In this document: one piece after another, positions 38,112 to 58,277 of the stretch
Numbering within the stretch: position 1 is the first letter of the stretch
Layout of the letters: each line of letters opens with the position of its first letter
IMG/VR virus record: IMGVR_UViG_3300024502_000010
Location: 1 to 64,000 of that record
Reading direction: 5' to 3' (one strand)
DNA length: 64,000 bases
Origin: a virus
Notes under the pieces: model-generated
The model's database searches: none
Seen by the model: the letters and a program-made list of their open reading frames with translations, nothing else
Told to the model about the DNA's origin: nothing
Position numbers and translations under genes: made by a program

Positions 38112-40043
38112 TTATTGTCTTACTAAATTCCCGTTACTGTAGCTTGAAGTTACTATGTAATTTGATGCAGATGGATCAAGTCCTGATGATATTTGATCAG
38201 TAATCATTTCAAATATACTGTTATTAATATCTAGCTGCAAATATAAATCCTGTAATCCGATAACATCATTTGATTTTGGAATAGTTGAAATTTCAATGAT
38301 TGATTGTCCATCTTTTACTTTATCGGTAGATAAAACATTTATTGGATTGAGTGTAATTATTCCTTTGACATAATCAATTCTACCAACATTTCTTCTTACT
38401 ATAGTTGCATCATTGGAATTAACACTTGGTACAGTAAAAAGGAACATGCTTCCAGTATTTCCATTAGTATCTGGGATGTCCGATAAGTAAACAGAACCTT
38501 GTATTCCGGAAATAGTAAATGCTGTAGATTTCACATTGTATCCATTCATACTCTTAATATGGAATGCATTGCCGAATCCAATCTGATATTCTGCTATAGA
38601 ATTTAAGACTACTCTTAAATCCCTTCTCATTTGAATCTTAGTGATGTTTGATGTTATTGCTGGATGACTATCATCTATTATCTTAAGAAATTTACTGTAT
38701 TTAAATCTTGCTCCATACTTATTCAATTCGGTTGATTCTGCATATTTATTGGTATTTGACTGAACAATACTCGAAACATAATCAGATCCTTGTGCGGAAT
38801 TTGTATTATAATAAATTTTAGAATCTACCTCAATATAGAGATACTTAAGATCTAAAATTTCAGGAACAATTCCTGCCACTGCGTATTTCTTTAAATCTCT
38901 TTTAATATTTTCTTTTATTAAATTGGGAATAAAATCTCCAGTCCTTGGTTTAATACTTATGAAAACTTTTCCATATTGGGGAGGAATCAACTCTTCTCCA
39001 CCAAAAACTGATATTGATTCCGTTTCTGGATAAATCTTTGAAGGTATTAATGATTCATAATCACTAGCAGTCAACGCTCTATTCTGGGAAGCATATATTC
39101 TTGTTGAATATTTTTTAATAGATTCTACAGTTTCTATGTTTTCTCCACCAGAAGAAATTAACCCAGTTGCCAACAAAGAAATTCCTGAGTTTACTGTATA
39201 CTCTACAGAATTTCTGGTATATGTTAATCTTCCGGAAAAAGCAAATTGATTTACTCCATTTCCACTATCACCATTTGATACAATATAATTAACTTCTATA
39301 AAATTATCATTCTCAAGTTTTTTGCCATATAAAATACCATCACCAAAAAGCAATTCATATCTTTCGTCTTCAATTTCTTGGATATAATAGACAGTAGAAT
39401 CCTTATCTACATCAAAGACACTATTTTGTAAAGAATAATTGACCAAAGAGGTTGAATTCTGGTCATCTTTTACTGATACTGAGATTAAAGAAGTATCTAC
39501 GCCAGGATTGGGTAATATAAATCTTTGATTTGGATTTCTCGAAGAATAAGTAAAAGATGTTGTTAGCAGTACACCCTCATATATTTTTAAATCATTAAAT
39601 GTTGCTACTTTATTAATTACTGGTACAGTCACATCATCTAATATTGAAAAAACAAATGATTGATTTCCAAAAGAACTTGATGATGTTGCTACAATTCCTT
39701 TTTTTAGAGTTATTGATGCTGGAACAGGAGTGATATTTGAGGTATCAATAAAAAAGCTTACCGTAGCTCTTGCTGCTTTTCTTGACCTAGGAACATATCC
39801 AATATTCCTAGCGAGGGCAACAACATTCTCTCTAAGAGTAGCACTATCAATAAAAACCTCATTCGCAACCATGTTTGCGTTATATGAGGTAATATATGTG
39901 TTATATGCTAAAACATCAAGTATAGACGATAAATTAGATCCCTCAAAATCATAGTCGGTGAAATTTGAGTTTGCTTTTAAATAGTCTCTTAAAGAAGCTT
40001 TTATCTGGTTAAAATCCAGATTTGAAAAATTTGTTAATGGCAT
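38112..40043 (-). CDS. 6: Baseplate wedge protein gp6
   Basis: 643 residues, near T4 gp6 (660). N-terminal signature MPLTNFSNLDFNQIKASLRDYLKANSNFTDYDFEGSNLSSILDVLAYNTYITSYNANMVANEVFIDSATLRENVVALARNIGYVPRS is classic gp6/J-like. gp6 dimers form the continuous ring around the baseplate dome. The start codon directly follows the gp25 stop, as in T4-like operons. Ends with SSYSNGNLVRQ. Confidence 0.94.
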   Translation of the reverse strand: MPLTNFSNLDFNQIKASLRDYLKANSNFTDYDFEGSNLSSILDVLAYNTYITSYNANMVANEVFIDSATLRENVVALARNIGYVPRSRKAARATVSFFIDTSNITPVPASITLKKGIVATSSSSFGNQSFVFSILDDVTVPVINKVATFNDLKIYEGVLLTTSFTYSSRNPNQRFILPNPGVDTSLISVSVKDDQNSTSLVNYSLQNSVFDVDKDSTVYYIQEIEDERYELLFGDGILYGKKLENDNFIEVNYIVSNGDSGNGVNQFAFSGRLTYTRNSVEYTVNSGISLLATGLISSGGENIETVESIKKYSTRIYASQNRALTASDYESLIPSKIYPETESISVFGGEELIPPQYGKVFISIKPRTGDFIPNLIKENIKRDLKKYAVAGIVPEILDLKYLYIEVDSKIYYNTNSAQGSDYVSSIVQSNTNKYAESTELNKYGARFKYSKFLKIIDDSHPAITSNITKIQMRRDLRVVLNSIAEYQIGFGNAFHIKSMNGYNVKSTAFTISGIQGSVYLSDIPDTNGNTGSMFLFTVPSVNSNDATIVRRNVGRIDYVKGIITLNPINVLSTDKVKDGQSIIEISTIPKSNDVIGLQDLYLQLDINNSIFEMITDQISSGLDPSASNYIVTSSYSNGNLVRQ

Positions 40044-40445
40044 TTACCTAATAGGTTGCAAAACAAACTGTAACTGTTGAGGTGTAACATCAATACCGAC
40101 AATTCTATAAGAAATTAATACGTCAAATGAATTGTTATCATAATCTGGAATTACGACCACTTGATTTAAAGAAACTCTTGGTTCATAGTTTGAAATAGAA
40201 TACTCTATTTCATCCTTAATGTTTTCAGCTGTCAGTTGATCTAGGTTTTCAAAGAGAGAGCGATTAATTTTGGAACCAAAACCTTCATTAAAAAATTTTT
40301 CACCAGGGTAAGTAAAGACAATATTTCGAATGGAACGAGCAATCGCATTTGCATTGTTAATAGCAATCAAGTCATTAGTCAGAGGATTGCTCTGAAATGA
40401 CATACTAATGTCTTTAAATCCTTTACTTACCCTTTCTAAAGGCAT
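40044..40445 (-). CDS. 25: Baseplate wedge protein gp25
   Basis: 133 residues (T4 gp25 132). NPLTNDLIAINNANAIARSIRNIVFTYPGEKFFNEGFGSKINRSLFENLD is the lysozyme-like gp25/W family core, followed by YEPRVSLNQVVVIPDYDNNSFDVLISYRI. gp25 joins gp6 and gp53 in the inner wedge and primes sheath polymerisation. AATAAATA lies 20 nt upstream of the ATG. Confidence 0.95.
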   Translation of the reverse strand: MPLERVSKGFKDISMSFQSNPLTNDLIAINNANAIARSIRNIVFTYPGEKFFNEGFGSKINRSLFENLDQLTAENIKDEIEYSISNYEPRVSLNQVVVIPDYDNNSFDVLISYRIVGIDVTPQQLQFVLQPIR

Positions 40446-41630: not shown

Positions 41631-41778
41631 TGTTAATTTCCTCCAGTTCAATTAAATTAGGATCAATATCATCACCCGAGTAAAAACGCTCAGATAAGTC
41701 TTGAAGAACCTCAAGACATTCATCTGTAGTGAGGTTCATATAAATTTTACGTCCTTTATAAAGTACGTGATAGTTCAT
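41623..41778 (-). CDS. 51-residue conserved-type phage protein
   Basis: MNYHVLYKGRKIYMNLTTDE then CLEVLQDLSERFYSGDDIDP and NLIELEEINNG. The start lies inside the TAATG overlap with the glycosyltransferase-like gene. Short beta hairpin plus helix by appearance. Unknown function. Confidence 0.65.
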   Translation of the reverse strand: MNYHVLYKGRKIYMNLTTDECLEVLQDLSERFYSGDDIDPNLIELEEINNG

Positions 41779-42545
41779 TAGATAATGCGAGTTTTTTCAT
41801 GTCCAACTCTAATGCGAGGATCGCACCAGATATCAAACCCCGCATCCTTGGCATCAAGACAGAATGAAACATCTTCGCCACACATATCTTGAACATTACC
41901 AGACTCAAAGACTTGCATCTTCGGAGCAAACCAAGGATACTCAAGATTCTCAAAGACTCCATTCTTAATCATAACCCATCCAAAACCTGTGTAATCTACA
42001 GTGAATGGCTTACGACGCTTGCTGATTGATTCCACAGTTTCGTGGTTCATTACACCACCATTCTTACGGAAATCATCTTCTTCTAACCAGTGTGCGACAG
42101 AAGTTGTGTGACCATCTTCTGTTGCGTACCAACCTGCAACAACTTCTTTCTCTTCTCCTTCAGCAGAAAGAGCTAAATCACAAAGCTGCCAGAACTTGTT
42201 AGAATCAAAAACAATATCATTATCAATCCAGAGCTGATAATCATATTGAAGTTTTCCATCCCAAGGTTTTTGGTTTGGTCCACGGAGAACATTTGCTCCA
42301 AGACACTTGCATCGTGCAAAGTTAACCATTGATGAATAATCTTGAGAAATTTGAATACTCATTCCATTTTGTACAATATCAAAACAAAGTTGTACAAATG
42401 CTTTCAAAAAGATATAAGAGCATCCTCGTCCAGGAAGACAGAATACAATACTCTTACCCTTCATCCTTTCTTTAATCGCATCGTAGTCCCATTCTTCAGT
42501 GGACTTCTTTGGTGCTACAGTTTTAACAGTGAATCCTTTTGCCAT
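41778..42545 (-). CDS. Glycosyltransferase-like protein (GT-A type)
   Basis: 255 residues. IVFCLPGRGCSYIFLKAFVQL and SIQISQDYSSMVNFARCKCLGANV form a Rossmann-like N-terminal half. DYQLWIDNDIVF (residues 102-113) carries a DxD-type metal/nucleotide-sugar motif at 108-110. The C-terminal CGEDVSFCLDAKDAGFDIWCDPRIRVGHEK is the usual GT-2-like acceptor side with GHEK. Such genes near virion operons may glycosylate capsid, fibre or DNA; the substrate cannot be read from sequence. A strong sigma70-like promoter precedes it. Confidence 0.7.
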   Translation of the reverse strand: MAKGFTVKTVAPKKSTEEWDYDAIKERMKGKSIVFCLPGRGCSYIFLKAFVQLCFDIVQNGMSIQISQDYSSMVNFARCKCLGANVLRGPNQKPWDGKLQYDYQLWIDNDIVFDSNKFWQLCDLALSAEGEEKEVVAGWYATEDGHTTSVAHWLEEDDFRKNGGVMNHETVESISKRRKPFTVDYTGFGWVMIKNGVFENLEYPWFAPKMQVFESGNVQDMCGEDVSFCLDAKDAGFDIWCDPRIRVGHEKTRII

Positions 42546-43084: not shown

Positions 43085-43342
43085 TTAGAAATACCTCCGG
43101 AAAATTTTTATGAGATTGATATTTATCGGTCGATTTGTCACCTCTGTAGGTTAGGGTAGTTTGCTTTTTTTAATAAGGGGGGGGGGCATCGGCGGGCTTA
43201 TAACAACGCCGCGCGGCGCTATAACAAATCGGCGGCAATTAACTGCCGATAAGCATCACTGCCAATCATAACATAAACGCCCCTCAGTGTCAACATCGCT
43301 CACGCTCTGTCTAACAACCAAGGGGCATACAGTTACTAACAA
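43085..43342. other. 258-bp intergenic region with GC-rich palindromes and a G10 tract
   Basis: No ORF seen. It contains a run of ten G (43177-43186), a perfect 12-bp palindrome CGCCGCGCGGCG (43207-43218) and an ATCGGC/GCCGAT inverted repeat (43228-43250), followed by a minus-strand promoter. In the minus direction this is a long structured leader before the 38-residue gene. GC content is far above the surrounding sequence. Confidence 0.6.
43265..43293 (-). promoter_or_regulatory. Sigma70-like promoter
   Basis: TTGACA (43288-43293), 17-bp spacer, TATGAT (43265-43270). Transcript would cross the GC-rich palindromes before reaching the 38-residue and membrane genes. Confidence 0.65.
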
Positions 43343-44329: not shown

Positions 44330-44376
44330 TTTGTTAACATAAAGACCCGATTATTTATGCTTTATGTTAACAAAAT
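44328..44376. repeat. Perfect 17-bp inverted repeat with 15-nt loop
   Basis: Arms ATTTTGTTAACATAAAG (44328-44344) and its exact complement (44360-44376). Each arm contains the GTTAAC palindrome. AT-rich without a T tract, so not a usual terminator. It overlaps the start codon of the 59-residue gene and could be an operator or an RNA hairpin controlling translation. Confidence 0.85.
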
Positions 44377-44410
44377 AAAAACGCCTTATATGGTATAAAT
44401 TGATACCAAA

Positions 44411-44584
44411 TTACCATCGGTCAGGTGTACTTAGGTCCTCAACATAAGCATCACACTTCTCTGCAGGTTCCAACTTGAATAACTTCTCCCAATCAATCTG
44501 GTGTGGGTCGAAGTCACCGAACACTGATAGATCCAGAGTAATCCTATAACGCTGCTTCTGTGCCTGCTGATATGCAACTGACAT
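44411..44584 (-). CDS. 57-residue early protein
   Basis: MSVAYQQAQKQRYRITLDLS then VFGDFDPHQIDWEKLFKLEP and AEKCDAYVEDLSTPDRW. The start at 44584 was chosen because it has AGGAGC just upstream; the longer frame to 44773 has an unlikely Pro-rich N-terminus. Perfect early promoter 28 nt upstream. Small beta/helix protein, function unknown. Confidence 0.65.
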   Translation of the reverse strand: MSVAYQQAQKQRYRITLDLSVFGDFDPHQIDWEKLFKLEPAEKCDAYVEDLSTPDRW

Positions 44585-44611: not shown

Positions 44612-44640
44612 ACTATAAGATGCTGGGCGGTTTTTGTCAA
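44612..44640 (-). promoter_or_regulatory. Strong sigma70-like early promoter
   Basis: TTGACA (44635-44640), exactly 17 bp, TATAGT (44612-44617), 28 nt before the ATG at 44584. The -10 is the same TATAGT that ends the 28-bp linker. Confidence 0.75.
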
Positions 44641-44713: not shown

Positions 44714-44743
44714 TTGACATTTTGGGGGCGAGTGTGATAGAAT
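44714..44743 (+). promoter_or_regulatory. Sigma70-like promoter facing the GIY-YIG gene
   Basis: TTGACA (44714-44719), 18-bp spacer, TAGAAT (44738-44743). Plus strand, diverging from the promoter at 44612-44640. It would give a leader of about 165 nt crossing the DnaA-like boxes. Confidence 0.5.
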
Positions 44744-44788
44744 GACCTGTAAGATAACGACCCCCAGAGACATTTAAATGACTATAAG

Positions 44789-44852
44789 TTTTCCACAATT
44801 CTAACAGTTTTTCCACACATTTATTATACTTTTTCCACAACATTGTGGAAAA
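44789..44852. other. Cluster of four TTTTCCACA boxes (cyanobacterial DnaA-box consensus)
   Basis: Exact TTTTCCACA at 44789-44797, 44809-44817 and 44831-44839 on the plus strand and at 44844-44852 on the minus strand. The first three are spaced 20 and 22 bp. The last two form a 10+2+10 palindrome. Surrounding DNA is AT-rich. TTTTCCACA is the DnaA-box consensus known for Synechococcus-type cyanobacteria. Confidence 0.65.
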
Positions 44853-44878: not shown

Positions 44879-44886
44879 TATAAATA
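44879..44886 (+). promoter_or_regulatory. Perfect T4 late promoter for the GIY-YIG gene
   Basis: TATAAATA, 26 nt before the GTG start, plus strand. Confidence 0.65.
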
Positions 44887-44912
44887 ACGCAAGTACATTT
44901 TTCATCAATTCA

Positions 44913-45926
44913 GTGGCATACATCTACTCAATCACCAACCTTGAGAATAGCAAACTCTATGTGGGAAAGACTACACAACCCAACCCATATGATAGATGGA
45001 AGCAACACCTACAGAACGCAAGAAGTAAGGATAATTTAGCAGAGAACAATTCATCTCACTCTATGCCTATTGTTCGTGCCATATGTAAGTACGGAGCAGA
45101 TAACTTTAAGTTTAGAGTATTGGAAGAATGTAGCGATGATAATGTTAATGAACGTGAAACCTTTTGGATAAACAAACTTGATACTTGTGGTAAGAATGGA
45201 TATAACATTACATTAGGTGGTGATGGTGTAAAGAAACCAAAAAAGTATTGGGCAAATCATCCACATTCCAAAGCAGTGAGTTGTTATACATTAGAAGGTG
45301 AATGGGTTAGAGACTATGAGAGTGTAGGAATTGCTGCTGATAGTTGTGGAAATAAAAAGGGAAAAACTGGGATAATTGCTTGCATTAAAGGTGTGACATT
45401 TCAAGCACTTGGATATAGATGGGCTTGGAAAGGTGAAACACCTAAAGTAATAGAAAAGAGAGTAAATGTTCGTGGTGCTGTATATGGAATCAATCCAACA
45501 TTAGGGCGTAAAAAGATGTGGAAATCAATGGCAGATGCGGCAGAAGAAATACAAGGAAATCGTACAAATAATCACGCTATTCATCACTCACTTAACAGTC
45601 CCGACAATAGCAAATTACAGGTAAAAGGTTGGTATTTCTTTAGATCAAAACCAACAGATTGGACACCAGCAACAAAAACAAATTCAATAGAACACTATAA
45701 AAAAATTGCTGCAATTAGCAACGAAAAAAGAAAGAAACCTGTCTATGGTGTAAGTATTAAAACCAACGAAATCGTAGAATTTGGTAGTATGAGTGAGGCG
45801 TCATTCTTTATCAAAGGTGATGGTAATTATAGTGGCGTTGCTAATATCAAAAACAACATTCAACGTATAAACAATGGGCAAACTTGGTGCAATGCTTATG
45901 GTTATAGATGGTACGAAAAAGCATAA
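44913..45926 (+). CDS. GIY-YIG homing endonuclease with modular DNA-binding tail
   Basis: 337 residues, GTG start (no ATG nearby). GIY-YIG nuclease: YIYSITN (3-9) and LYVGKT (15-20) form the two strands, R28 (PYDRWKQH) the catalytic arginine, and the E in NERETFWI (E82) the metal ligand. Beyond residue ~100, repeats of NUMOD type (AVSCYTLEGEWVRDYESVGIAA, AVYGINPTLGRKKMWKSMADAAEE, PVYGVSIKTNEIVEFGSMSEAS) are DNA-binding helical modules. Free-standing mobile endonuclease of the T4 Seg type: it cuts phage genomes lacking it and is copied in by repair. Inserted opposite to all neighbours with its own late promoter. Confidence 0.92.
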   Translation: MAYIYSITNLENSKLYVGKTTQPNPYDRWKQHLQNARSKDNLAENNSSHSMPIVRAICKYGADNFKFRVLEECSDDNVNERETFWINKLDTCGKNGYNITLGGDGVKKPKKYWANHPHSKAVSCYTLEGEWVRDYESVGIAADSCGNKKGKTGIIACIKGVTFQALGYRWAWKGETPKVIEKRVNVRGAVYGINPTLGRKKMWKSMADAAEEIQGNRTNNHAIHHSLNSPDNSKLQVKGWYFFRSKPTDWTPATKTNSIEHYKKIAAISNEKRKKPVYGVSIKTNEIVEFGSMSEASFFIKGDGNYSGVANIKNNIQRINNGQTWCNAYGYRWYEKA

Positions 45927-57668: not shown

Positions 57669-58277
57669 TCAGCGAGAAGTGTATCGGTGTTGGAGGTCTT
57701 TCTCACTCTTAATGTTTTTACCTCTTTCTCTTTCTCCTGCAATTACAAGATCGCGGAGTTTCTGTTCTCCCTTTCTTGTAACATGCAATCTTTCTTGTCT
57801 GCTTAGACCAGATGCTTTTTGTGGTTTGTATCCAGGAGCGGGTTCTGCTGTTGCTTTCTTCTTAGAAAGAAGTTTAGTTGCTGCTTTTACTACTTCTTTT
57901 GCTTTTGGTTTTTCTGCTGCTGGTGCTGGTGATTCTCCACCTTTCTTAGCAGCAATTCTTGCCTGTGCTGCTTTTCTTCTTTCCTCTTTTGCTGCTGCCA
58001 GTTGTCTTTCTCTAGCAGATCCACGCTCTTGTTCTGGTTGTTGAATTTGTGAACCCTTTGGTTTTCCAATATCCTTGCGTGGTTTGTATTCTTTTGCTGG
58101 TTCCATTTTACCACCGCCAACTGCTTTCATACGGCGTTTTTCAGGAGTTGTCTTTTTGCGTTCAGCACCAATACGACCGCCAGGTCTTGCTTTTCTGATT
58201 GTTGCTTGGAATCCAAGTGCTTTTGACTTGTCATCAACTTCTTCGCAAATAGACATAAACTCCTGAAAGGTTTTCAT
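57669..58277 (-). CDS. Basic 202-residue protein with capsid-targeting-like N-terminus
   Basis: MKTFQEFMSICEEVDDKSK begins like the T4 internal-protein capsid-targeting peptide (MKTYQEFIAE), which the gp21 prohead protease cleaves after an (I/L)xE site. Here ICE at residues 10-12 would be the cleavage site. The rest is extremely Lys/Arg/Ala/Gly-rich (GGRIGAERKKTTPEKRRMKA; PAPAAEKPKAKEVVKAATKL), as expected for DNA-packed internal head proteins. Candidate protein injected with the genome. Upstream is a CTAAATAC sequence, a weak late-promoter match. Confidence 0.65.
   Translation of the reverse strand: MKTFQEFMSICEEVDDKSKALGFQATIRKARPGGRIGAERKKTTPEKRRMKAVGGGKMEPAKEYKPRKDIGKPKGSQIQQPEQERGSARERQLAAAKEERRKAAQARIAAKKGGESPAPAAEKPKAKEVVKAATKLLSKKKATAEPAPGYKPQKASGLSRQERLHVTRKGEQKLRDLVIAGERERGKNIKSEKDLQHRYTSR

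Follow-up and report, generated by a model that had tools for sequence, protein, structure and literature searches.

The window, which is the whole 64,000-nucleotide stretch analysed (positions 1 to 64,000 of IMG/VR record IMGVR_UViG_3300024502_000010, a source record of 204,829 bp), belongs to a T4-like cyanomyovirus, since its closest regional matches are S-SM2, Bellamy and SynMITS9220M01 and since gp25, gp6 and the helicase lie at the expected places. A non-coding array of four TTTTCCACA copies is found at 44789-44852. Its surroundings comprise small minus-strand genes and then, on the same strand, GC102, gp25 and gp6. The features of the locus are:

38112-40445, minus strand: baseplate wedge genes gp6 and gp25 (phrog_219, 4.8e-186; phrog_261, 1.4e-53), opposite to the promoter at 44714
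41778-42545, minus strand: conserved landmark gene GC102 beside gp25/gp6 (phrog_1574, distant glycosyltransferase similarity)
44411-44584, minus strand: 57-aa protein (phrog_12516, 6.4e-22), a flanking landmark in most relatives
44612-44640, minus strand: predicted divergent sigma-70-like promoter, TTGACA-17-TATAGT (11/12 consensus positions), for the minus-strand early genes
44714-44743, plus strand: predicted early sigma-70-like promoter, TTGACA-18-TAGAAT with TG before the -10 (11/12 consensus positions), reading towards the array
44750-44788, plus strand: leader between promoter and array; relatives carry AAGATCACAAG..CACATTTATAAG
44789-44797, plus strand: DnaA box 1, exact TTTTCCACA, the least conserved direct copy (14/63 aligned positions mismatched in relatives)
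44809-44817, plus strand: DnaA box 2, TTTTCCACA, core (1/63 mismatched in relatives)
44831-44839, plus strand: DnaA box 3, TTTTCCACA, core, 22 bp after box 2 (1/62 mismatched in relatives)
44844-44852, minus strand: DnaA box 4, inverted, palindrome partner of box 3
44879-44886, plus strand: putative T4-type late promoter motif TATAAATA, identified by the T4 consensus (3/84 mismatches in relatives across 44879-44890)
44913-45926, plus strand: GIY-YIG homing endonuclease, 337 aa, GTG start (Pfam GIY-YIG, 2.1e-14; phrog_314, homing endonuclease)

Most of the relatives compared show an equivalent of the promoter at 44714 ahead of their array, and no second promoter-leader-array combination of this kind was found in the rest of the genome. 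Near DNA relatives in the phage collection gave matches limited to the flanks or to part of the leader. An Rfam search of 42-46.5 kb returned no family above its threshold. The product of 44913-45926 contains the GIY-YIG catalytic domain, and the gene is free-standing and missing at the syntenic place in S-SM2, Bellamy and SynMITS9220M01. Other repeats were seen at 44330-44380, where a long, terminator-like inverted repeat (TTTTGTTAACATAAAG..CTTTATGTTAACAAAA) lies downstream of a small minus-strand gene, and at 1200-1810 of the window, where repeats with a 78-bp period contain GTACTATT/AATAGTAC.

The preliminary description had reported four exact sites within 64 bp, three on the plus and one on the minus strand, with 20/22-bp spacing and a 10+2+10 palindrome, and all of this was confirmed. 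Start-to-start distances are 20, 22 and 13 bp, and boxes 3 and 4 form the palindrome TTTTCCACAA-CA-TTGTGGAAAA. Only two further copies of TTTTCCACA occur in the 204,829 bp (at 74003 and 160363). The genome total of six is ordinary when compared to the 4.4 expected from a third-order Markov model. The clustering is exceptional, as not one simulation out of 200,000 gave even three copies within 64 bp. The genome does hold other 9-mers with at least three copies per 100 bp, most of them spaced at multiples of 3 bp as in coding repeats; the TTTTCCACA cluster differs from these by its irregular spacing and its non-coding position. The cyanobacterial DnaA consensus matches TTTTCCACA exactly, and paired boxes of such kind are bound in vitro by cyanobacterial DnaA (PMC4674748).

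We then compared the spacing of phage and host arrays. Among 91 same-strand spacings from 41 distinct arrays adjoining cyanomyovirus genes, 33 measured 11-12 bp and 49 measured 20-22 bp (82/91). The search admitted gaps of 1-30 bp, so these peaks were not forced by it, and related phages inflate the counts. Phage boxes usually have AG on their 5' side and GG on their 3' side. The same spacing peaks and flanks were found in 25 cyanobacterial chromosomal arrays, and the oriC arrays of Synechococcus PCC 7942, Anabaena PCC 7120 and Cyanothece 51142 (PMC4674748) likewise contain several exact copies of TTTTCCACA. Spacing by helical turns points to a protein on DNA and supports DNA-bound DnaA. The array is real and conserved, and very probably binds DnaA. 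The earlier identification of the sites as host-type DnaA boxes thereby gained strong, if indirect, support from the exact host-group 9-mer, clustering beyond chance, spacing and flanks of the chromosomal type, and enrichment in one zone of many phage genomes.

In the alignment of the DnaA-box class, boxes 2 and 3 were changed at 1.6% of the aligned positions versus 10-30% in the spacers, similar to the late promoter, while box 1 and the inverted box were less constrained. This pattern bears on whether the element acts as RNA, with a leader hairpin controlling the endonuclease messenger or forming a small RNA. The leader indeed folds better than shuffled sequences (z of -3.8 here, -3.1 in L037 and -4.3 in S-SM2), and the direct-plus-inverted layout is kept across motif classes. 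However, the inverted copy decays in relatives (to TGTGGAATA or TGCGGAAAA, or is lost; degraded or lost in L021, L028, L030, L033 and L045), and box 3 mostly stays exact without a compensating change. Box 2, outside the palindrome, is among the most conserved elements, the spacing tracks DNA helical turns, and the hairpin lies 60 nt from the start codon, so that the ribosome site is not covered. The pattern of change thus does not fit a conserved hairpin, and we consider control through RNA very improbable.

The position of the boxes is conserved as well. We counted TTTTCCACA in 80 IMG/VR loci that surround GC102: of 45 sites, 42 lay 0.6-3.6 kb upstream of this gene. This corresponds to 42 sites in 139 kb of zone versus three in 811 kb outside, an enrichment of about 70-fold, whereas the E. 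coli form TTATCCACA was not enriched in the zone (1.2-fold). Large records were searched whole for clusters of at least two boxes within 100 bp, counted where GC102 could be located. All 13 placeable clusters, from 12 records, fell 1-7 kb upstream of GC102; they partly share ancestry, and the product of their chances is therefore not a probability. In several cluster-bearing records the identity of GC102 to that of the window drops to 67-81%. In L135/G020 (up to eight boxes in 380 bp), L136 and DSL-LC03 (L277), boxes surround the divergent promoter, either as well or as an alternative. Of the 15 isolates fetched, only two, S-SM2 and DSL-LC03, had a cluster in the zone, and S-SCSM1 had a single box there. 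S-SM2, whose host is WH8017, has its two boxes at 58064 and 58085. Judged by these isolates, DnaA boxes are not universal in cyanomyoviruses. One 284,050-bp record (G001, L019; IMG/VR contig 3300027541_000009) contains two copies of GC102 and two DnaA-box arrays that differ from each other, and probably represents two phage genomes joined in assembly.

Relatives of the endonuclease are encoded in 52 IMG/VR loci. Those with the most similar enzyme have one to four exact boxes upstream; among the loci of about 70-76% identity, many carry ATTCTCAA/TTGAGAAT repeats at the place of the array, and other loci have no repeats. The preliminary description had suggested DnaA-sensing control of the endonuclease gene and of the divergent early operon. 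Control of the endonuclease alone proved too narrow: promoter, leader and boxes are retained in the endonuclease-free loci S-SM2, L202, L216, L225 and L230, and with this the idea that the boxes move solely together with the endonuclease was rejected as well. Three more endonuclease-free loci (L206, L222 and S-SCSM1) retain promoter and leader with one box. Behind the boxes of endonuclease-free loci comes a CATATACATTTTTTAATACATTTTT-like stretch rich in AT, and several of these loci also have a terminator-like hairpin. At the identical insertion point, L250 carries an HNH endonuclease and L264 a different GIY-YIG enzyme. The locus is therefore independent of the GIY-YIG gene, and the insertion point has been used repeatedly. 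Dedicated control of the divergent operon was too narrow as well, as arrays are present in G019-G021, where no homologue of the divergent gene could be detected, and boxes serving only phrog_12516 are thereby ruled out.

Not all relatives carry DnaA boxes in the leader; others have Fur-box-like repeats, CACGAAT repeats or none. The leader of L037, for example, is of the TTGAGAAT class. The Fur-box-like ATTCTCAATAA equals, as a sequence match only, the core of the Anabaena FurA consensus AAATAAATTCTCAATAAAT (PMC4005646). Repeats of ATTCTCAATAA/TTATTGAGAAT contain this core and are phased, with copies 11-12 and 20-24 bp apart (direct distances of 11-12 and mostly 23 bp, inverted distances of 20-21 bp). 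Their zonal enrichment is only 5-8 fold, from small counts, and one control motif reached 3.3 fold. A third class, GATAATAAGAATCATTATC in L257, resembles the E. coli Fur box. We tentatively regard the alternative repeats as Fur boxes. One intergenic region of DSL-LC03 (L277, 1500-2500) combines two arrays, of which one is Fur-box-like and lies in the early leader, while the other is a separate DnaA array of five boxes. Upstream of GC102, seven sister phages (L192, L215, L219, L229, L236, L245 and L258) have clustered ACGAATAA/TTATTCGT about 13-19 bp apart, and several of them also have CACGAAT repeats of longer period in the same zone. DnaA boxes are thus no universal requirement, judged by the loci that lack the array or have phased Fur-box-like repeats in its stead. 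The swapping of arrays argues that the leader offers exchangeable protein sites and does not depend on one indispensable initiator.

Such exchangeability would also be expected if the arrays titrated different host regulators. As phage copies rise, they would then capture host DnaA and block new rounds of host replication, and in sister phages the Fur-like arrays would titrate Fur and raise iron uptake. Several high-consensus sites in non-coding DNA suit such a sponge, but there are only 4-8 per genome, and their usual place behind an early promoter, in fixed orientation to it, would go unexplained. We regard titration as quite unlikely. A broader proposal, which we consider improbable though less so than titration, is that marine T4-like phages share a conserved early control and replication-start locus, with binding sites that are swappable host-regulator modules (DnaA here, Fur in sisters). 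If true, the phage would time early transcription or first-round replication by the replication or iron state of its host.

The exact boxes, their phasing, the constraint on boxes 2 and 3, the conserved zone, the promoter matches and the repeated endonuclease insertion are evident from sequence; DnaA binding, transcription, a gating effect and its purpose are inferred. The reading we prefer, with a probability of about 0.42, is that host DnaA binds the array and acts as a gate for a non-coding locus that is conserved and transcribed early. DnaA molecules would sit side by side on the boxes, along a single face of the DNA, in the initial ~110 bp that the early sigma-70 promoter would transcribe. 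When host DnaA is plentiful, its binding to boxes 2 and 3 and their neighbours would block or shorten the early leader transcript. The late promoter after the array would escape this block, and the endonuclease would be made mainly from there. The array would be part of an older, endonuclease-independent cyanomyovirus locus consisting of early promoter, leader, phased sites, AT-rich tail and terminator, into which endonucleases inserted repeatedly. Free-standing and intron-encoded GIY-YIG homing endonucleases of T4 are regulated between early and late expression, and the predicted early promoter upstream and the putative late TATAAATA promoter close to the endonuclease resemble this arrangement. 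In contrast to T4, the control element of the phage would be an array of protein sites that is found also without the endonuclease. Two observations count against gating of a single transcript: some arrays, among them those of DSL-LC03, L135 and L136, are placed on the divergent side or not simply in the leader, and the leaders of other relatives hold the alternative repeats described above, or none.

Not far behind DnaA gating ranks an origin of the T4 oriE kind, a serious alternative that we hold somewhat less likely. RNA from the early promoter would prime DNA synthesis from an R-loop in the AT-rich stretch that follows the array, and DnaA on the boxes would aid DNA opening and helicase loading. 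T4 oriE has evenly spaced 12-nt repeats and depends on an early promoter (PMC3016281); it lies beside gene 5/gene 6, its early transcript runs opposite to the late genes, and the GIY-YIG gene segC adjoins it. The phage locus has similar parts: a predicted early promoter opposite to the late baseplate genes gp25/gp6, even direct repeats (20 and 22 bp here, mostly 11-12/20-22 bp in relatives), a GIY-YIG gene close by and, in relatives, an AT-rich tail. Several lineages have box clusters, placed at differing intergenic sites within the one zone. Unlike in oriE, the repeats are host DnaA boxes, and gp6 lies at another distance than in T4. An origin would be an odd place for Fur-box-like sites, box clusters are missing from most cyanomyoviruses (only 2/15 isolates have one in the zone), and no DnaA C-terminal domain is encoded in the 205-kb record. 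Since the swapping of arrays argues against an indispensable initiator, we rank gating above a DnaA-melted origin.

The locus is also unlike a cyanobacterial oriC, as it belongs to a lytic T4-like phage, has an early-promoter leader and shows no skew inflection. It has neither dnaN nor dnaA as a neighbour, nor an encoded initiator; the neighbours identified are phage genes. In three full genomes (G000, S-SM2 and DSL-LC03), GC skew had no extremum at the array. The shift at 45-52 kb is small, stems partly from the plus-strand endonuclease and is not specific, and we dropped GC skew as a marker of origins. Because replication of T4-type phages relies largely on recombination, the skew is weak evidence against an origin. 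For the host-dependent origin raised earlier, a universal DnaA dependence is disfavoured, with most cyanomyoviruses lacking the boxes or carrying other repeats and with no origin signature in GC skew.

The general view of T4-like phages is that they do not depend on host DnaA. The open-access papers searched for cyanophage DnaA boxes or origins contained no report of such sites. The sequence comparisons suggest that this phage recruits host DnaA at an early control site or a replication start. A conserved host-DnaA array would offer a small, concrete target for asking at which site these abundant phages of the ocean begin to replicate and how they sense the state of their host.

A further non-coding element, CTACCCTAACCTACAGAGGTGACA, lies at 43145-43154 on the minus strand, inside TGTCACCTCTGTAGGTTAGGGTAG. 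It is near-identical upstream of GC102 in many cyanomyoviruses, including S-SM2, Bellamy, L135, L192 and L215, and is possibly a promoter or an origin core.
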